A stretch of 64,000 nt of DNA from Roseospirillum parvum. Its GTDB lineage: Bacteria > Pseudomonadota > Alphaproteobacteria > Rhodospirillales > Rhodospirillaceae. The stretch covers positions 124,001-188,000 of the forward strand of contig NZ_FNCV01000002.1 of assembly GCF_900100455.1 (NCBI RefSeq). Reading direction: 5' to 3'. Below the pieces are notes generated by a model, which saw nothing but the letters and a program-made list of their open reading frames with translations, made no database searches and was not told where the DNA came from. The position numbers and the translations under genes are program-made. Shown in pieces: positions 20,823 through 28,528 of the stretch (position 1 is the stretch's first letter; every line of letters starts with the position of its first letter).

Positions 20823-21683
20823 TCAGTCTTCCGGGGTCGCCTCGACCGGCAGGGTCATCTGGCCCAGGGTCAGACCGTCCGGGCCGTCGATGCCCAGGCG
20901 CACGGTCTGCCCGGGCCTCAGGTACTCGCCGCGCCCCATGCCGACCCCGGCCGGGGTGCCGGTGGCCAACACGTCGCCCGGCTTCAGGGTCATGAACCGG
21001 GAGACATAGGCGATCAGCTCGGCCACCCCGAAGATCATGTCGCCGGTCTGTCCGTTCTGGCGCATCTCGCCATCCACCGACAGCCACAACCCCAGGCTCT
21101 GCGGGTCGGGCACTTCGTCGGCGGTGGTCAGCCAGGGGCCGAGCGGGCAATAGGTGTCGCACGACTTGCCCTTGATCCACTGGCCGCCCCGGTCGATCTG
21201 GAAGCTGCGCTCGGAGACATCGTTGAGCACCGCGTAGGCGGCCACGTGGTCCAGCGCCTGGGCCTCGGAGACCCGGCGCGCCGGGCGCCCGATGATCACC
21301 GCCAGCTCCACCTCCCAGTCGGTGCGGGTCGAGCCCGGGGCCAGACGGATGGCGTCGCACGGGCCGGACAACGCCGAAGTATGCTTGGAAAACAGGATCG
21401 GCTCGGCCGGCGGGGGCAGTCCGGTCTCGGCGGCGTGGTCGCGGTAGTTGAGGCCGATGCACAGGATGTTGCCGATGCCGACCAGCGGCACGCCGAGGCG
21501 CGGCGCGCCCATCACCGGCGGCAGGCTGTCCGGGTCGAGCCCCGCCAGCCGCTTCAGGCAGGCCGGATCGAGCGCCCCCGGAGTCAACTCGGGCAGGCGG
21601 GCGGAGAGGTCGCGGATCGACCCGTCGGGGGTCATCAGGCCGGGCTTTTCGGCCCCCGGCGAACCGTGGCGAAGCAGGCGCAT
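20823..21683 (-). CDS. Fumarylacetoacetate hydrolase-family protein
   Basis: 286 aa. FAH-superfamily C-C bond hydrolase/isomerase, cytoplasmic and Mg-dependent. Family motifs: 'CIGLNYRDHAAETG', 'PILFSKHTSALSGP', the metal-binding acidic pair in 'DWEVELAVIIG', 'NDVSERSFQ' and 'KPGDVLATGTPAGVGMG'. The 60-residue N-terminal domain plus hydrolase domain matches the ureidoglycolate lyase / 2-hydroxyhepta-2,4-diene-1,7-dioate isomerase subgroup, but the substrate cannot be told from sequence. Single gene, diverging from the cyclase gene. Confidence 0.85.
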   Translation of the reverse strand: MRLLRHGSPGAEKPGLMTPDGSIRDLSARLPELTPGALDPACLKRLAGLDPDSLPPVMGAPRLGVPLVGIGNILCIGLNYRDHAAETGLPPPAEPILFSKHTSALSGPCDAIRLAPGSTRTDWEVELAVIIGRPARRVSEAQALDHVAAYAVLNDVSERSFQIDRGGQWIKGKSCDTYCPLGPWLTTADEVPDPQSLGLWLSVDGEMRQNGQTGDMIFGVAELIAYVSRFMTLKPGDVLATGTPAGVGMGRGEYLRPGQTVRLGIDGPDGLTLGQMTLPVEATPED

Positions 21684-21916
21684 GGCAGGGGGTGCTCTCT
21701 GGTCGTGACAGCGTCCCGAGGGAGGCTTGGCCCCGAGTCTAACCCCGCCGAGTCGCCGACGGAACCGGCAATGCGGCGCCCCGTGAGGCCGGTCACAGAC
21801 GCCAGCCAGACCCCGCCGCCGACCGGCCGGACCAGGCGATTGCCCTTGACCCGGAAAGCCGGCGTGGGATGCTCGGTGGGTGGAGGCGTCGGAAGGCGCG
21901 AGGGAAAGCGAACCGA

Positions 21917-24205
21917 ATGGGCGGAACGGACGGCAGCGATATCGGCACCACGCCGCTCTGGCGGCGCCGGCTGGGGTTGCGCGTGCCGCTGGCCGTCAAC
22001 CTGTTCACCATCATGGCCGCCCTGACCCTGGGCGTGGTGCTGGTGATGACCGGCTTCACCGCCGTCAAGGGCCGTCAGGTGGCCGAGGCCACCGGGCGCA
22101 CCCTGTCGCGCGAGGTGACGGCCAGCGTGGCCCACCAGGTGGAGGCGCTGTTCGCCCCGGCGGCGGTGCTCGCCCGGCTGTCGGCCAGCCTGCCCGATCT
22201 GGCCCGCCCGCCGGACCTGCTGATCCATCCGGCGGGCTGGTACATCATGCAGGCGCTGGACGCCTATCCGGCCCTCTACTCGGCCTACATGGGCTACGCC
22301 GACGGTGCCTTCTACCAGATCATCGCCATCCCCCACGAGTCGGCCGACACCCTGCGCGCCAAGCTGCGCAACCGCATGGTGGCGCGGGCCCACGGGGCAC
22401 CGCCCGGGACGCGCTTCATCCATCGGGTGATCCTGACCCCGGACCCGGGACGGCGGCTGGAGGTGTGGACCTACCTCGACCCGGCGCGCCAACTGCTCGG
22501 CTCCAAGGTGGTCGAGAACCCCAGCTACGACCCGCGCCGACGCCCCTGGTACCGCCAGGGCCGCGACAGCCAACAGGTGGCGCTGACCGACATCTACACC
22601 TTCGACAGCCTGGGCTCGGCCGGCCTGACCCTGGCCCGCGGCTTCGATGGCAACCTGCCCGGGGTGTTCGGGCTCGACCTGACCCTGACCGCCATCGCCG
22701 CCTTCCTGGAACAGCAGGCGTTGACCCCCAACGGTCGCCTGCTGGTGGTCACCACCGACGAGCAGGTGATCGCCTATCGCGGCCCCGAGGGCCTGCGCAC
22801 CGGCGCCGAAATGGTGCGCGGCCGGCCGCTCGCCCTGGGCGACCTGGGCGATGCCGGAATCGTGCACGCCCTGCTCGCCAAACGTGCGGCGGCCGACGTG
22901 GCGCTGATCGACGAGGCCGCCGGGAACGACGGTCCGCTGCTGGTCCGCCGAGTGCCGGTCAACCTGCCCGGCGGGCAGCCCCTGGTGGTCGCCATGGCCG
23001 CCCCGCTGGCTGACTTCACCGGCCCGGTCGACGACCTGCTCGCCGACAGCCTGCTGTTCGCCGCCGCCCTCGCCCTGCTCGGCCTGCCGCTGACCTATGT
23101 GGTGGCCCGGCGCATGTCCCACGCCCTCAACCAACTGGCCGCGGAGGCGGCACGCATCCGCGAGCTGGATATGAGCGGCGAGGTACGGGTGCGCTCGCCG
23201 GTCCGCGAAATCCACGATCTGGCCACCGCCCAGCAGACCATGAAGAAATCGCTGGCCACCTTTGGCCACTATGTGCCCAGGGAGCTGGTGCGCCAGATCG
23301 TCGCCGCCGGGGGCGAGGCCCGGCCGGGCGGCGAACGGCGCGAGCTGAGTCTGATGTTCACCGACATCACCGGCTTCACCCCGCTGGCCGAAAGCGTCGA
23401 GCCGGAGGACCTGATGGTCCGCGTCTCGCACTATTTCGAGGAGATCACCGCCGCCGTCACGGCCAACGGCGGGGTGATCGACAAGTTCATCGGCGACGCC
23501 GTGATGGCGCTGTGGAACGCCCCCACCCTGAACCCGGACCATCCCCGGCTGGCCGCCCTGGCGGCGCTCGAGGCCCACCGGCGGGTGGCGGCCTTCAACG
23601 CCGGACTGAAGGAAAACCGCCTGCCGCCGTTCCCGACCCGCTTCGGCCTGCACCTGGGCGAGGCGGTGGTCGGCAACCTGGGCTCCTCGGAACGGATGGA
23701 CTATTCGGCCATCGGCGCGACGGTCAACATGGCGGCGCGGCTGGAAGGGCTGAACAAGGTCTACGGCACCGGGATCCTGCTCTCCGAGCACCTCCGCCAA
23801 CGCCTGGACGGCGCCTTCGTCACCCGCGAGGTGGACCGGGTTCAGCCCAAGGGGTCGCGGGAAGCGGTGCGCATCTTCGAGTTGCTCGGGGTCCATCCCA
23901 GGGGTCGACTGGCTGGCGGCCCAGGTGGCGGCCCAGGTGGCGGCCCAGGTGGCCCCCCAGGTACCGTGAGCGGCCACACCGTGAACAGCGGCACGGTGGC
24001 CTTCGCCAGCCGCTGGGCGGCGGCTCAGGACCGCCTGCGCCGCCTGCAGGACTTCGCCGGCGCGGCGCGGCTCTTCGCCGAGTTGGCCGGGCAGCGCCCC
24101 GACGACCCCTTGGCCATCAAGTACCGCGACCTGACGGCCCGTCTGGCCGCCGACCCGACCGCCGCCGACCAATGGACCGGGGTGCGCCGGATGGAGGAGA
24201 CATGA
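21917..24205 (+). CDS. Membrane-bound class III adenylate cyclase with extracytoplasmic sensor
   Basis: 762 aa. Transmembrane helix 1 at about residues 23-48, a periplasmic Cache-like sensor (about 50-370, including 'YDPRRRPWYRQG' typical of dCache domains), helix 2 at about 372-395, a HAMP-like linker, then the cyclase domain (about 470-660). Metal-binding Asp residues are in 'LMFTDITGF' and 'GDAVMALW'; Lys of 'DKFIGD' and Asp of 'MDYSAIGATVNMAARLEG' are the ATP-selecting pair, so cAMP is the expected product. A Gly/Pro tandem-repeat linker leads to a C-terminal helical segment. Start ATG 21917 follows GAGGGAAA. Its stop overlaps the next gene, a binding protein, suggesting joint sensing. 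Confidence 0.85.
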   Translation: MGGTDGSDIGTTPLWRRRLGLRVPLAVNLFTIMAALTLGVVLVMTGFTAVKGRQVAEATGRTLSREVTASVAHQVEALFAPAAVLARLSASLPDLARPPDLLIHPAGWYIMQALDAYPALYSAYMGYADGAFYQIIAIPHESADTLRAKLRNRMVARAHGAPPGTRFIHRVILTPDPGRRLEVWTYLDPARQLLGSKVVENPSYDPRRRPWYRQGRDSQQVALTDIYTFDSLGSAGLTLARGFDGNLPGVFGLDLTLTAIAAFLEQQALTPNGRLLVVTTDEQVIAYRGPEGLRTGAEMVRGRPLALGDLGDAGIVHALLAKRAAADVALIDEAAGNDGPLLVRRVPVNLPGGQPLVVAMAAPLADFTGPVDDLLADSLLFAAALALLGLPLTYVVARRMSHALNQLAAEAARIRELDMSGEVRVRSPVREIHDLATAQQTMKKSLATFGHYVPRELVRQIVAAGGEARPGGERRELSLMFTDITGFTPLAESVEPEDLMVRVSHYFEEITAAVTANGGVIDKFIGDAVMALWNAPTLNPDHPRLAALAALEAHRRVAAFNAGLKENRLPPFPTRFGLHLGEAVVGNLGSSERMDYSAIGATVNMAARLEGLNKVYGTGILLSEHLRQRLDGAFVTREVDRVQPKGSREAVRIFELLGVHPRGRLAGGPGGGPGGGPGGPPGTVSGHTVNSGTVAFASRWAAAQDRLRRLQDFAGAARLFAELAGQRPDDPLAIKYRDLTARLAADPTAADQWTGVRRMEET
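23915..23962 (+). repeat. 12-bp tandem repeat inside the cyclase gene
   Basis: Three units of GGCGGCCCAGGT plus one variant (GGCCCCCCAGGT), in frame, encoding a Gly-Gly-Pro-Gly linker between the catalytic domain and the C-terminal helices. Confidence 0.75.
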
Positions 24206-25602
24206 GCCTGCCCCGGCGAGCCTTCCTGAGCGGCGCCGTGGGCGTCGGGGCGGCCCTGCTGACCGGCGGCGCCGGCCCGCTCGGGCGCACCAACCAGCCC
24301 TTGAGCCTGTGGACCACCGACCTCGAGCCCCGGCGCCGCATCACCATGCGCCACCTGCTGGATGTCCAGCGGGCGCTGTCCGGCGGTCCCCGCGTCAACA
24401 TCGAGGTGGTGCCCGAGGAGGACCTGGTCGACCTTTTGCGGCTGGTCCGCGCCGGGCGCAGCCTGCTGCCCCGCCCCGATTTGATCAACACCGGCGCCGA
24501 CGCCCTGCTGGCGCTCGACGCCGAGGGCTTCCTCGATGCCGCCGCCACCGCCCGGGTGGTGGTCGATGTCGGGGCGCTCGACTTCCAGCCCGGCGCCCTG
24601 GCCGCCCTGCGCCGCCCCGATGGCAGCCTGCTCGCCGTGCCCTTCCACGGCTGGCCGCAGGTGATCTGGACGCGCGCCGACTGGCTGGCCGACGAGCACG
24701 GCCTGGAGCCGCCGCGCACCATCGACGAGTTGCTGACCGCCGCCCGCCTGCTGAACGACCCGGCCCGCGACCGGCGGGGCGTCATCCTCGGCACCGGCGG
24801 CGACTACTACACCCAGCAGTGCTTCATGATGATCGCCCGCGCTTTCGGCGCCGCCGTCTTCACCGCCGACGGGCCGAGCCTCGACAGCCCGGGCATGGTC
24901 GAGGCGCTGAGGGTCTACCGCGAGTTGGCCAACCACGCCGGGCCGGGCACCCTGACCTGGCGGGCCCGCGACTACTACCTGCAGGGCCGGGCCGGGATGC
25001 TGTTCTACTCCACCTTCCTGATGGACGATCTGGCCATCCCCGAGGTGGCCGCCGACTCGCTGGGCGGCGATCATTTCGACGACCTCCCCGGGGCCCCCTT
25101 CGATTCCACCCTGGTCCGCCACAGCGCCCCGGTGGTCGCCCTGCGCCAGGGCGGCCGGGTCGGCGCCTTCAACTCGATCAACGGCCTGGGGCTGACCGCC
25201 CGCGGCGACCCGGCACGGCGCCGGGCGGCGCGCCAGGTGGCCCGCTTCCTGTTCCGCCGCGATGCCTACATCACCTGGCTGCACATGTCGCCGGGCGGCA
25301 TGCTGCCGGTGCTCGGCGGGATCGGCGGCGACGATGCCTTCCTGCGCGACCGGCTCGGCGTGCTGCGCACCTTCGGCCGGGACACCACCCAGCGGCTGGC
25401 CGACGCCCTCAAGACCCCGGCCACCTTTTCCATCGTCAGCGGCCACGATCCGGGACGGGCCTACGCCGAGCCCCGGGCCGGGCTGATCTACGCCGAGCGG
25501 GTGGTCGGTCACATGGTGGCCCGGGTGGTCGGCGGCTTCCGCGACCCGGCCAGTGCCGCCGCCGAGGCCCAGCGGGAGGCGTTGCGCTTGCTGGGCCGCT
25601 GA
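24202..25602 (+). CDS. Extracellular solute-binding protein (family 1), twin-arginine signal
   Basis: 466 aa. The N-terminus MSLPRRAFLSGAVGVGAALL is a short Tat-like signal (RRAFL) without a lipobox Cys, so a soluble periplasmic protein is expected. The body is a family-1 (maltose-type) solute-binding fold: 'LSLWTTDLEP', 'VPFHGWPQVIWTRADWL', 'GTGGDYYTQQCFMMIARAFG', 'GRAGMLFYSTFLMDDLA', 'NSINGLGLTA'. No permease or ATPase gene is adjacent. Its ATG overlaps the stop of the adenylate cyclase gene, so it may present a ligand to the cyclase sensor rather than feed a transporter; this is inference. Confidence 0.82.
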   Translation: MSLPRRAFLSGAVGVGAALLTGGAGPLGRTNQPLSLWTTDLEPRRRITMRHLLDVQRALSGGPRVNIEVVPEEDLVDLLRLVRAGRSLLPRPDLINTGADALLALDAEGFLDAAATARVVVDVGALDFQPGALAALRRPDGSLLAVPFHGWPQVIWTRADWLADEHGLEPPRTIDELLTAARLLNDPARDRRGVILGTGGDYYTQQCFMMIARAFGAAVFTADGPSLDSPGMVEALRVYRELANHAGPGTLTWRARDYYLQGRAGMLFYSTFLMDDLAIPEVAADSLGGDHFDDLPGAPFDSTLVRHSAPVVALRQGGRVGAFNSINGLGLTARGDPARRRAARQVARFLFRRDAYITWLHMSPGGMLPVLGGIGGDDAFLRDRLGVLRTFGRDTTQRLADALKTPATFSIVSGHDPGRAYAEPRAGLIYAERVVGHMVARVVGGFRDPASAAAEAQREALRLLGR

Positions 25603-25720
25603 GCCGGTGCGCGCCGTCTCAACCGAACGGTCATCGCTCGGCCCTTCCCGGCCATCGGCCCAATGGGCTACCGTTGACTCTCCATCCAGGGACTCCCCAT
25701 CCAGCCAGGAAAGATGGATC

Positions 25721-28528
25721 ATGACCGAAGCGCCAACCTCGCGGTTGTCCGACGCCACGGCCCTGCCCAAGGTCGACCGCGACCTGCGCCACCTGATGGA
25801 CGCCTTCGCCGAGGTCCTGCACGAGATCGGCGAGGGCGAGCTGGCCCGGCGCCTGCCCTGGCCGGCCGAGAACGGCGCCCCCATCGCGCTCGACGCGCCG
25901 GGGGTCAACGACTGGCCGCAGGACCTCGACGACCCCTTGACCGAACGGGCCGTGGAAGCCCGCTCCATCGCCTTCCAGTTGCTGCATCAGGCCGAGGAGA
26001 ACGCCCTCGCCCAAAGCCGCCGGCAGGTGGAAAGCGAGGGCGCCCTGGATGCCGACTCGGGCTCCTGGGAATACGTGCTCAGCCGGCTGGCCGCCGATGG
26101 CTGGAGCGAGGCCGAGATTGCCGCCGCCCTGGTCGAGGTCCACGTCGAGCCGGTGCTCACCGCCCACCCGACCGAGGCCAAGCGGGCCAGCGTGCTGCAC
26201 CACCACCGGGCCATCTACCGCCTGCTGGTCGACGCCGAGAACCAGATGTGGACCCCGGGCGAGCGGGCCAGCCTGCGCGAGGACATGAAGGCGGCCCTGG
26301 AACGCCTGTGGCGGACCGGCGAGATCCTGCTCGAAAAGCCCACCGTGGCCGGCGAACTGGGCATCGTGCTCCACTTCCTGGGCGACGTCTTCCCGGCCAC
26401 CCTGCCCTGGCTCGACCGCCGCCTTTTGACCGCCTGGCAGCGTGTCGGCTTCGATCCGGCGAGCCTGGACGAGGCCACCCGGCGGCCCCGCCTGAGCTTC
26501 GGCAACTGGGTCGGCGGGGACCGCGACGGCCACCCCCTGGTCACCCCCGAGGTCACCGCCCGCACCCTGGAAAGCCTGGCCACCCGGGCCCTCGACAACC
26601 TGCGCGCCGCCCTGGCCCGGCTCGCCGCCGGGCTGTCGCTCAGCGTCTCCCGCCAGGCCGTGCCGGAAGCCCTCAGCCACCGCCTCGACGCCCTGGCCGA
26701 GGCCCTGGGCGAAGCCGCCCCGCCGGCCCTGGCCCGCAACCGCGATGAGCCCTGGCGCCAACTCCTCAACCTGATGATCGCCGCCCTGCCCGACCCGCTC
26801 GGCCCGCCGGCCCCGGGCCGCTACCGGACGGCCGACGCGCTGCTGGCCGACCTCGACCTGTTGAGCCAGACCCTGAAGGAGATCGGCGCCGAGCGTCTGG
26901 CCCGCCGCGACGTCACCCCGGTGCGTCGGCAGGTGGCGACCTTCGGCTTCCATCTGGCGGCCCTCGACATCCGCCAGAACAGCGCCTTCCACGACCGCGC
27001 CCTGGCCGACCTTCTGACCGCCGGCGGCATCGACGGCGCCGACTACGCCGACTGGCCGATGGACCGCCGGCGCCAGATGCTCGACCGCGAGTTGGCCTCG
27101 CCGCGCCCCTTCATCCACGACGGCCGCCGGGCCGGCCCCCACGCCGAGGCGGTGATCGGCGCCCTGGCGGTGGTCGCCCAGCGCCTGGAAACCCACGGCC
27201 CGGCCGGCCTGGGCGCGCTGATCGTCAGCATGACCCGCGACGTGGCCGACCTTCTGGCCGTCTACCTGCTGGCGCGGGAGGCCGGCCTGCTCGCCTTCGG
27301 CGAGGACGGCGCCGCCTGTCCGCTGCCCGTGGTGCCGCTGTTCGAGACGATCGAGGATCTGGCCCACAGCCCGGCCATCCTCGACGCCTTCCTGGCCCAC
27401 CCGGTGACCCGCGCCAGCCTGGCCCGGCAACAGCGCCAGAGCGGCGCCCCCAGGCCCAGCCAGCAGGTGATGATCGGCTACAGCGACAGCGGCAAGGACG
27501 GCGGTCTGGTGGCCAGCCAATGGGGCCTGCATCAGGCCCAGGCCGCCATGGTCGAGGTGGCCGAGCGGCACGGCGTCACCTTGCGCTTCTTCCACGGCCG
27601 GGGCGGCACCATCAGCCGCGGCTCCGGCCCCACCCACCGCTTCGTGCGCGCCCAGCCGCCCGGCGCCATCGACGGGGCCCTGAGGCTGACCGAGCAGGGC
27701 GAGACCATCTCGCAGAAATACGCCAACGTGGTCACCGCCGCCCACAACCTGGAACTGCTCACCGCCGGCACCCTGAACGCCACCCTGCGCGGCCGCCGGG
27801 CCAGTCGCGCGGCCCACCCGCTGGCGCCCATCATGGCGCGGCTGGCCGAGACCAGCCGGACCCGCTACCGCCAGCTTCTCGAAACCCCCGGGTTCATGGA
27901 CTTCTACGCCCAGGCGACGCCGATCGACGTGATCGAGGCCAGCCGCATCGGCTCGCGCCCGGCCCGGCGCACCGGCAAGCGGACCATGGAGGACCTGCGC
28001 GCCATCCCCTGGGTCTTCGCCTGGAGTCAGGCCCGCTTCCTGGTCTCGGCGTGGTACGGCGTGGGCAGCGCCCTGCTCGACCTCTTGGACGACGACCCGG
28101 AGACCTTCGAGCGCCTCGCCACCTGCAAGCGCGACGCCGACTGGCCGCCCCTGCACTACCTGATCAGCAACGCCGCCACCGGCTGGGCCACCGCCGATCC
28201 GGCGATCATGCAGCGCTACGCCGGGCTGGTCGGCGACCCGGTCACCCGGCAACGCCTGCTCGACCCGATCCTCGACGAATACGAACGCACCCGCCACGGC
28301 CTGGAGGCCATCTACCAGGGCCCGCTGGCCGACACCCGGCCCCGCGTCCACCACGTGCTGGCCCTGCGCGGCCCGGCCCTGGAACCGATCCACCAGCGCC
28401 AGATCAAACTGCTCCAGGCGTGGCGCGAGGCCAAGAACAACGACCACGCCGACCAGGCCGACGCCCTGCTGCCGCCGCTGCTGCAAACCGTCAACGCCAT
28501 CGCCGCCGGCCTCGGGGCGACCGGGTAA
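25721..28528 (+). CDS. ppc: Phosphoenolpyruvate carboxylase
   Basis: 935 aa, usual length. Adds bicarbonate to PEP to form oxaloacetate, an anaplerotic reaction. Active-site motifs: 'VLTAHPTEAKRASV' (catalytic His, about residue 148), 'GYSDSGKDGGL', 'FHGRGGTISRGSGPT' (mobile loop) and 'RIGSRPARR'. 'PWVFAWSQARFLVSAWYG' is also conserved. The C-terminus ends ...AAGLGATG rather than the QNTG/RNTG seen in most family members. Monocistronic, with about 120 bases upstream and composite element C starting two bases after the stop. Confidence 0.95.
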   Translation: MTEAPTSRLSDATALPKVDRDLRHLMDAFAEVLHEIGEGELARRLPWPAENGAPIALDAPGVNDWPQDLDDPLTERAVEARSIAFQLLHQAEENALAQSRRQVESEGALDADSGSWEYVLSRLAADGWSEAEIAAALVEVHVEPVLTAHPTEAKRASVLHHHRAIYRLLVDAENQMWTPGERASLREDMKAALERLWRTGEILLEKPTVAGELGIVLHFLGDVFPATLPWLDRRLLTAWQRVGFDPASLDEATRRPRLSFGNWVGGDRDGHPLVTPEVTARTLESLATRALDNLRAALARLAAGLSLSVSRQAVPEALSHRLDALAEALGEAAPPALARNRDEPWRQLLNLMIAALPDPLGPPAPGRYRTADALLADLDLLSQTLKEIGAERLARRDVTPVRRQVATFGFHLAALDIRQNSAFHDRALADLLTAGGIDGADYADWPMDRRRQMLDRELASPRPFIHDGRRAGPHAEAVIGALAVVAQRLETHGPAGLGALIVSMTRDVADLLAVYLLAREAGLLAFGEDGAACPLPVVPLFETIEDLAHSPAILDAFLAHPVTRASLARQQRQSGAPRPSQQVMIGYSDSGKDGGLVASQWGLHQAQAAMVEVAERHGVTLRFFHGRGGTISRGSGPTHRFVRAQPPGAIDGALRLTEQGETISQKYANVVTAAHNLELLTAGTLNATLRGRRASRAAHPLAPIMARLAETSRTRYRQLLETPGFMDFYAQATPIDVIEASRIGSRPARRTGKRTMEDLRAIPWVFAWSQARFLVSAWYGVGSALLDLLDDDPETFERLATCKRDADWPPLHYLISNAATGWATADPAIMQRYAGLVGDPVTRQRLLDPILDEYERTRHGLEAIYQGPLADTRPRVHHVLALRGPALEPIHQRQIKLLQAWREAKNNDHADQADALLPPLLQTVNAIAAGLGATG

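Follow-up and report, generated by a model that had tools for sequence, protein, structure and literature searches.

In Roseospirillum parvum, a class III nucleotide cyclase and a family-1, YcjN-like solute-binding protein (SBP) are encoded by two overlapping genes. We propose that the two proteins probably constitute one receptor, in which, by analogy with known systems, the cyclase would be controlled by docking of the SBP on its dCache domain. The genes lie on the forward strand of a 64,000-nucleotide stretch of contig NZ_FNCV01000002.1 (positions 124,001 to 188,000), referred to below as the window, whose numbering is used for all coordinates that carry no locus or contig label. We favor this proposal because the pair is conserved, because genes for a cognate importer are absent, and because SBP and cyclase diverge jointly. 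These three observations support the two-part sensor layout put forward in an original prediction that was made from the sequence alone.

A conserved cyclase-SBP gene pair

The cyclase gene (21917..24205, + strand) encodes a 762-residue receptor of the dCache-HAMP-cyclase type, assigned from the open reading frame list, its translation and a PF00211 match; an alternative in-frame ATG at 21869 would add 16 residues. The SBP gene (24202..25602, + strand; 466 residues, assigned from its translation and PF01547) starts within it. As originally predicted, the cyclase stop overlaps the SBP start, exactly so in the sequence: a four-base ATGA (24202..24205, + strand) contains both the ATG of the SBP (24202-24204) and the TGA of the cyclase (24203-24205). 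A Shine-Dalgarno-like run for the SBP, GGAGGAG (24193..24199, + strand), is also found in the sequence inside the 3' end of the cyclase gene, 2 bases before this ATG. Gene order is invariant in all pairs, with the cyclase followed by the SBP. A 4-base overlap also occurs in genome G046 and 1-base overlaps in G015 and G032 and, with open reading frames as listed, at loci L186 and L189; the remaining pairs have small cyclase-SBP gaps, which are approximate values measured to the profile start.

Among 60 related genomes, all five close relatives of the SBP (E 1.3e-64 or better; 16 weaker matches were left out of this count) adjoin a relative of the cyclase; the G033 cyclase lies close to the end of its contig and is only partly present. 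A wider scan, with the SBP alignment as query, covered one genome per species in 84,980 species, and the best 80 of 107 loci were kept. The SBP is followed by ABC (ATP-binding cassette) permeases, with no adjacent cyclase, at 65 of these 80 loci (two permeases each; L153 is cut by the contig) and is preceded by a dCache-cyclase at 11. Three loci show neither permease nor cyclase, two of them at contig ends (L148, L176) and the third a true orphan, a spirochaete SBP of this family (L182:5905-7266). At the importer locus L155, a weak sensor-like open reading frame lies about 5 kb behind the SBP. At the last of the 80 loci, L115, from a Rhodospirillales metagenome-assembled genome (MAG), a Cache-HAMP protein lacking a catalytic domain precedes the SBP (L115:4559-5917, the same as L229:143-1501), and the 13-kb locus holds no cyclase domain; either the assembly is at fault or this receptor has no output of its own.

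Distinct pairs are present in 14 genomes of three phyla, L113, L114 and L187 being the same as G015, G032 and G007 and counted once. Six belong to the order of the window (the window itself, G007, G015, G032, G033 and G046), four to Desulfovibrionaceae (L116, L119, L128, L158) and three to spirochaetes (L180, L186, L189), and one is found in an unplaced proteobacterial MAG (L125). Across 317 genomes of the window's order, the 25 SBP matches divide into 6 that are cyclase-linked, 1 that is Cache-linked (G634, identical in sequence to L115) and 18 that are permease-linked and more distant, and none is linked to both. The original prediction had taken absence of the pair from relatives as evidence against itself; the recurrence found here is the opposite outcome, and this conservation rules out chance neighbors. 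The idea that the cyclase family as a whole is coupled to SBPs was also rejected: for 29 additional cyclases of this wider family from Alphaproteobacteria (L194-L222), neither of two SBP models finds a match in the flanks (at most 1.5 kb, some shorter; other SBP families were not modelled). The unpaired G007 cyclase (L056) has an SBP_8-type gene at a distance of 1.4 kb, which was rejected as a partner: it encodes a PRK11622-type importer SBP, and the same stretch has an ABC ATPase match.

Absence of a cognate importer

None of the open reading frames of the whole window matched a permease model, and no match to the ABC ATPase query was found within its 64 kb, in line with the earlier reading that the locus has neither component. 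The genome contains 10 family-1 SBP matches and 30 permease matches, and by coordinates three SBPs have no permease nearby, namely that of the window, C12:126132 and C20:131875. The best genome matches to the cognate-permease models (C26:66329-67995; 122.6 and 97.7 bits) are accompanied by their own SBP at C26:68360, so no free cognate permease is present in the genome. The co-regulated ABC permease elsewhere that was originally named as contrary evidence was therefore not encountered, the best-matching permeases being already provided with an SBP.

These data bear on the possibility that the SBP works for an ABC importer whose genes lie elsewhere and that the cyclase gene is merely co-transcribed, which we judge unlikely. 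The nearest relatives of the SBP outside the pair are importer SBPs, and the sugar-type importer at C26:66329-69220 might accept a second SBP. However, this importer has its own adjoining SBP, its permeases match the cognate family with only the two scores given above, and in the 14 genomes the SBP keeps with the cyclase and never with cognate permeases wherever the flank is visible.

Joint divergence of SBP and cyclase

In an 83-row SBP tree, importer-linked proteins are separated from cyclase- or Cache-linked ones by a single change, on a branch with a Shimodaira-Hasegawa-like approximate likelihood ratio (SH-aLRT) support of 98, long branches being flagged. The same split is recovered in a 52-row tree with support of 100/99 and is present in all 200 bootstrap trees counted; G033 and 30 near-duplicates were left out of this tree and of the outgroup tree described below. 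SBP conservation was counted by group, with 15 cyclase- or Cache-linked rows versus 51 importer-linked rows. In the cyclase tree, the pair cyclases cluster (3 changes versus a shuffled mean of 11.8), the spirochaete trio standing apart and an unpaired cousin, L005 of G007, falling inside the pair cluster. The identity distances of SBPs and cyclases correlate over 13 pairs (r 0.87, p 1e-4; 0.82 without L113 and L114), G033 having been left out of this test and the truncated L115 out of the cyclase alignments.

Architecture of the cyclase and its Cache domain

The class III identity given in the original prediction is confirmed by a PF00211 match of 50.5 bits (Pfam cut-off 21.9) and by intact catalytic residues. 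In a structure model with a predicted local distance difference test score (pLDDT) of 88.7 and a predicted template modelling score (pTM) of 0.54, a transmembrane helix is followed by a periplasmic alpha/beta region, a second transmembrane helix, linker helices, the catalytic domain and C-terminal helices. The first transmembrane helix spans about residues 23-48 (21983..22060, + strand; hydropathy windows starting at 19-34, model helix 25-89) and the second about residues 371-396 (23027..23104, + strand; hydropathy windows starting at 371-380, model helices 365-415 and 430-452). Behind the latter we read a HAMP-like segment and a coiled linker, with no Pfam HAMP match in the cyclase. The catalytic domain covers residues 471-660 (23327..23896, + strand), as delimited by PF00211, by the residues D483, K523, D527, S597, N604 and R608 and by the CyaB and Cya2 folds. 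A Gly-Pro-rich repeat behind it (23917-23964), in which residues 674-680 have a pLDDT below 50, is absent from five aligned relatives.

Between the two membrane helices, the periplasmic dCache sensor occupies about residues 49-370 (22061..23026, + strand). It is delimited by profile matches to PctA, PctB and 7k5n, by a phmmer match to PctB and by the strands of the model. Pfam dCache_1 remains below its cut-off in the cyclase (20.4 bits versus 45); a profile of six relatives searched against the PDB matched the dCache structures 7k5n, PctA and PctB with E values of 2.8e-12 to 2.7e-11. The periplasmic Cache-type sensor described originally is thus upheld by the profile and by its placement in the model. 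A fold search with the whole cyclase model gave cyclase domains only among the 50 matches listed.

PctA and PctB are dCache_1 amino-acid receptors that have all six motif positions in common with the window cyclase; they differ in having a chemoreceptor output and no known dedicated SBP. In PMC10104139, the motif positions are given in PctA numbering as Y121, R126, W128, Y129, Y144 and D173. Their counterparts in the window cyclase, all six present, are Y204, R209, W211, Y212, Y227 and D254 (22526..22678, + strand); PctB aligns over YDPRRRPWY. Nine of the 13 pair cyclases carry the motif unchanged, and in the remaining four the only departures are from Tyr to Phe. It is also frequent in unpaired cyclases and is therefore not a mark of pairing.

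Such a pattern is what would be seen if an amino acid were sensed by the cyclase itself, directly at the dCache motif, while the SBP were an independent partner in the same regulon, acting perhaps as scavenger or buffer and never in contact with the receptor; the existence of unpaired cyclases points the same way. This explanation would not account for the switch of the SBP between two mutually exclusive gene contexts, nor for the constant order of the two genes, their overlapping stop and start codons and the parallel divergence of their products, and we give it little probability. Within a joint SBP-cyclase receptor, the Cache domain may instead provide a second, direct amino-acid input beside the SBP. 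For the window pair, the motif speaks against an SBP that hands its ligand to the Cache pocket and would rather favor two inputs or pure docking. The original idea that the binding protein presents a ligand to the receptor is accordingly the less supported part of that prediction, the partnership standing while the SBP may be a second input.

Catalytic domain and product

Cya2 (2w01, Z 26.3) and CyaB (3r5g, Z 26.0) are the tied top matches of the catalytic domain among known folds. D483, K523, D527, N604 and R608 are kept in all 13 pair cyclases examined, and position 597 is Thr in 10 of the 13 and Ser in three, including the window protein; an equivalent of K523 is present in 43/43 aligned proteins. 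We take D483 and D527 to be the metal-binding aspartates, N604 and R608 the Asn-Arg pair, K523 the usual adenine-reading lysine and Thr at 597 the label of class IIIb. Because the catalytic D, K, D, N and R are kept, the product is probably cyclic AMP (cAMP); K523 would favor ATP as substrate, and the Ser at 597 of the window protein is the less usual residue. Production of cGMP, with the SBP still as partner, would agree with Ser597 at the specificity position and with the guanylyl cyclase Cya2 as joint best structural match, but is very improbable in view of the invariant K523 and the predominance of Thr at 597, read with the roles just assumed. The genome encodes eight class III cyclases, including that of the window, and 10 cyclic-nucleotide-binding domains that are potential readers of the signal; none of these is linked to the window cyclase.

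The solute-binding protein

The SBP matches PF01547 with 56.2 bits (Pfam cut-off 26), and its model (pLDDT 93.3) has the fold of YcjN, so that its original placement in family 1 is secure. YcjN (8vqk) is the closest E. coli protein both by profile (E 5.6e-67) and by fold (Z 45.5; 7v09 scores Z 46.4). The next structural matches are sugar binders, from which we would guess a carbohydrate ligand. Tat (twin-arginine translocation) export, as originally proposed, may be read from the N-terminal RRAFLSG. This twin arginine is kept in 4 of 6 other SBPs of the window's order and not in the desulfovibrio and spirochaete SBPs compared, and is thus not a family trait.

Weighing the evidence for a joint receptor

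Several observations weigh against a joint receptor. When six distant importer SBPs are used as outgroup, the cyclase-linked rows split (2 changes) while the importer group stays whole (94/99), and this tree gives no direction for the change between the two SBP states. The joint divergence may partly reflect host phylogeny. Direct ligand binding is suggested by the intact Cache motif. An adjoining SBP is lacking for most members of the wider cyclase family, the close cousin L005 in G007 (42% identical) among them, and because such unpaired cyclases exist the cyclase fold needs no SBP. Flanks are also short in places: L125, L186 and L189 have fewer than 160 bases behind the SBP, where a permease would escape detection, and the importer loci L123, L133, L137 and L165 have fewer than 320 bases upstream. 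Finally, a polyamine importer with its own SBP stands in front of the pair in G046 and L116.

The G046 importer is PotFGHI-like and lies directly before the pair on the same strand (L055:3923-7988), and that of L116, a Desulfovibrio MAG, is PotDAB-like and divergent from the pair (L116:338-3631); a polyamine importer was not seen at the other pair loci examined. These importers are a possible hint of a link to polyamine physiology.

Comparison with known receptors

Docking of a periplasmic SBP on the sensor domain of a membrane receptor is known for LuxP-LuxQ and TorT-TorS, which differ from the present pair in that the receptors are histidine kinases and the SBPs belong to another family. In NspS-MbaA of Vibrio cholerae and Sinorhizobium meliloti, a membrane enzyme of second-messenger metabolism is reported to have an importer-type SBP as its sensor. 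The arrangement proposed here resembles it, but NspS is a polyamine-type SBP and MbaA a cyclic di-GMP (c-di-GMP) enzyme, whereas in the window the SBP is of the sugar type and family 1 and the enzyme is a class III cyclase. CuaDSR of Ruminiclostridium cellulolyticum, as described in PMC10384115, has a family-1 SBP that is distinct from that of the importer and that binds to a HAMP-containing receptor at its outer domain. The combination of SBP family and HAMP-containing receptor is the same, but CuaDSR employs a histidine kinase, and the genes of the importer CuaABC lie next to it. YcjN differs in turn, being a lipoprotein of a sugar import and metabolism cluster with an unknown ligand, and the available text of PMC11543891, which gives these particulars, has 0 mentions of cyclase.

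The SBP-activated receptors named in the accessible part of PMC9602780 are chemoreceptors, sensor kinases, c-di-GMP enzymes and Ser/Thr kinases; adenylate cyclases appear there as a receptor class and not among the SBP-gated ones. No SBP-gated adenylate cyclase was found among the top results of word-ranked searches of the open-access literature, which agrees with the original remark that the layout is seldom described for cyclases.

Proposed mechanism

Based on the above data, we propose that the exported SBP would close around a small solute, which family analogy suggests to be a carbohydrate, and dock on the dCache domain of the cyclase. The loaded or empty state of the SBP would then alter the cyclase dimer through the HAMP segment and linker, and this change would set the catalytic rate of cyclic nucleotide synthesis, probably that of cAMP. 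Direct binding of an amino acid to the Cache domain may provide the receptor with a second input. We infer docking and control by analogy with NspS-MbaA, CuaD-CuaS, LuxPQ and TorTS; the contact between SBP and cyclase, the ligand, the direction of control and ATP as substrate are likewise predictions.

A comparable arrangement is seen with another SBP family. Three cyclase relatives adjoin family-5 SBPs, with no detectable permease on the same stretch: two SBP genes lie at G033:C157, where the contig ends within one of them, three at G017:C99 (their starts uncertain) and one at G006:C18. The family-5 genes lie at L067:7756-10116, L068:4353-8835 and L071:4091-5614, in tandem in two contigs. Because family-5 SBPs also adjoin relatives of the cyclase, SBP coupling to this receptor type seems to have arisen more than once. 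The first two positions of the amino-acid motif are lost in L014 and L015, both of the aligned cyclases that adjoin family-5 SBPs. In G017:C99 a 122-residue cyclic-nucleotide-binding protein is encoded between SBP and cyclase, and another adjoins the G006:C2 cyclase. Such single-domain PF00027 proteins of 122-123 residues, next to cyclases of this subgroup (L015:3429-3794 and L065:9859-10227, both on the - strand), are possible dedicated effectors.

A broader picture, which we offer only tentatively, is that SBP-gated cyclases make up a family found in three or more phyla. In these, cAMP would be set both by an amino acid bound to the dCache domain and by a sugar-type solute whose presence a YcjN-like SBP signals. 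The SBP family would have switched once between importer and receptor service, and family-5 SBPs, arranged in tandem and twice accompanied by a small cyclic-nucleotide-binding protein next to a cyclase of the same subgroup, would have been coupled to relatives of the cyclase, the first two motif residues being lost in both of those checked.

Genomic surroundings and implications

In the window, a FAA-hydrolase gene (20823-21683) precedes the cyclase on the opposite strand. A phosphoenolpyruvate carboxylase open reading frame (25553-28528) lies behind the SBP; its listed start falls within the SBP gene and is probably too early. Neither of these flanking genes points to a transporter. In G015 and G032, a GAF/HD-GYP-type (HD_5) gene is placed directly before the pair (L053:12432-15715 and L054:12093-15032, both on the - strand), and in G015 a weak family-3 SBP match (27.3 bits versus 26.4) lies before the HD_5 gene. 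A dCache chemoreceptor gene follows the SBP by about 300 bases in a Pseudodesulfovibrio MAG (L119:7583-9595, + strand).

If SBP and cyclase do form a joint receptor, a conserved SBP-cyclase unit would extend SBP gating to cAMP and would supply a testable extracellular input for one of the eight class III cyclases that the genome encodes. Moreover, the pair would be a natural case for comparing one SBP family in importer and in receptor service.

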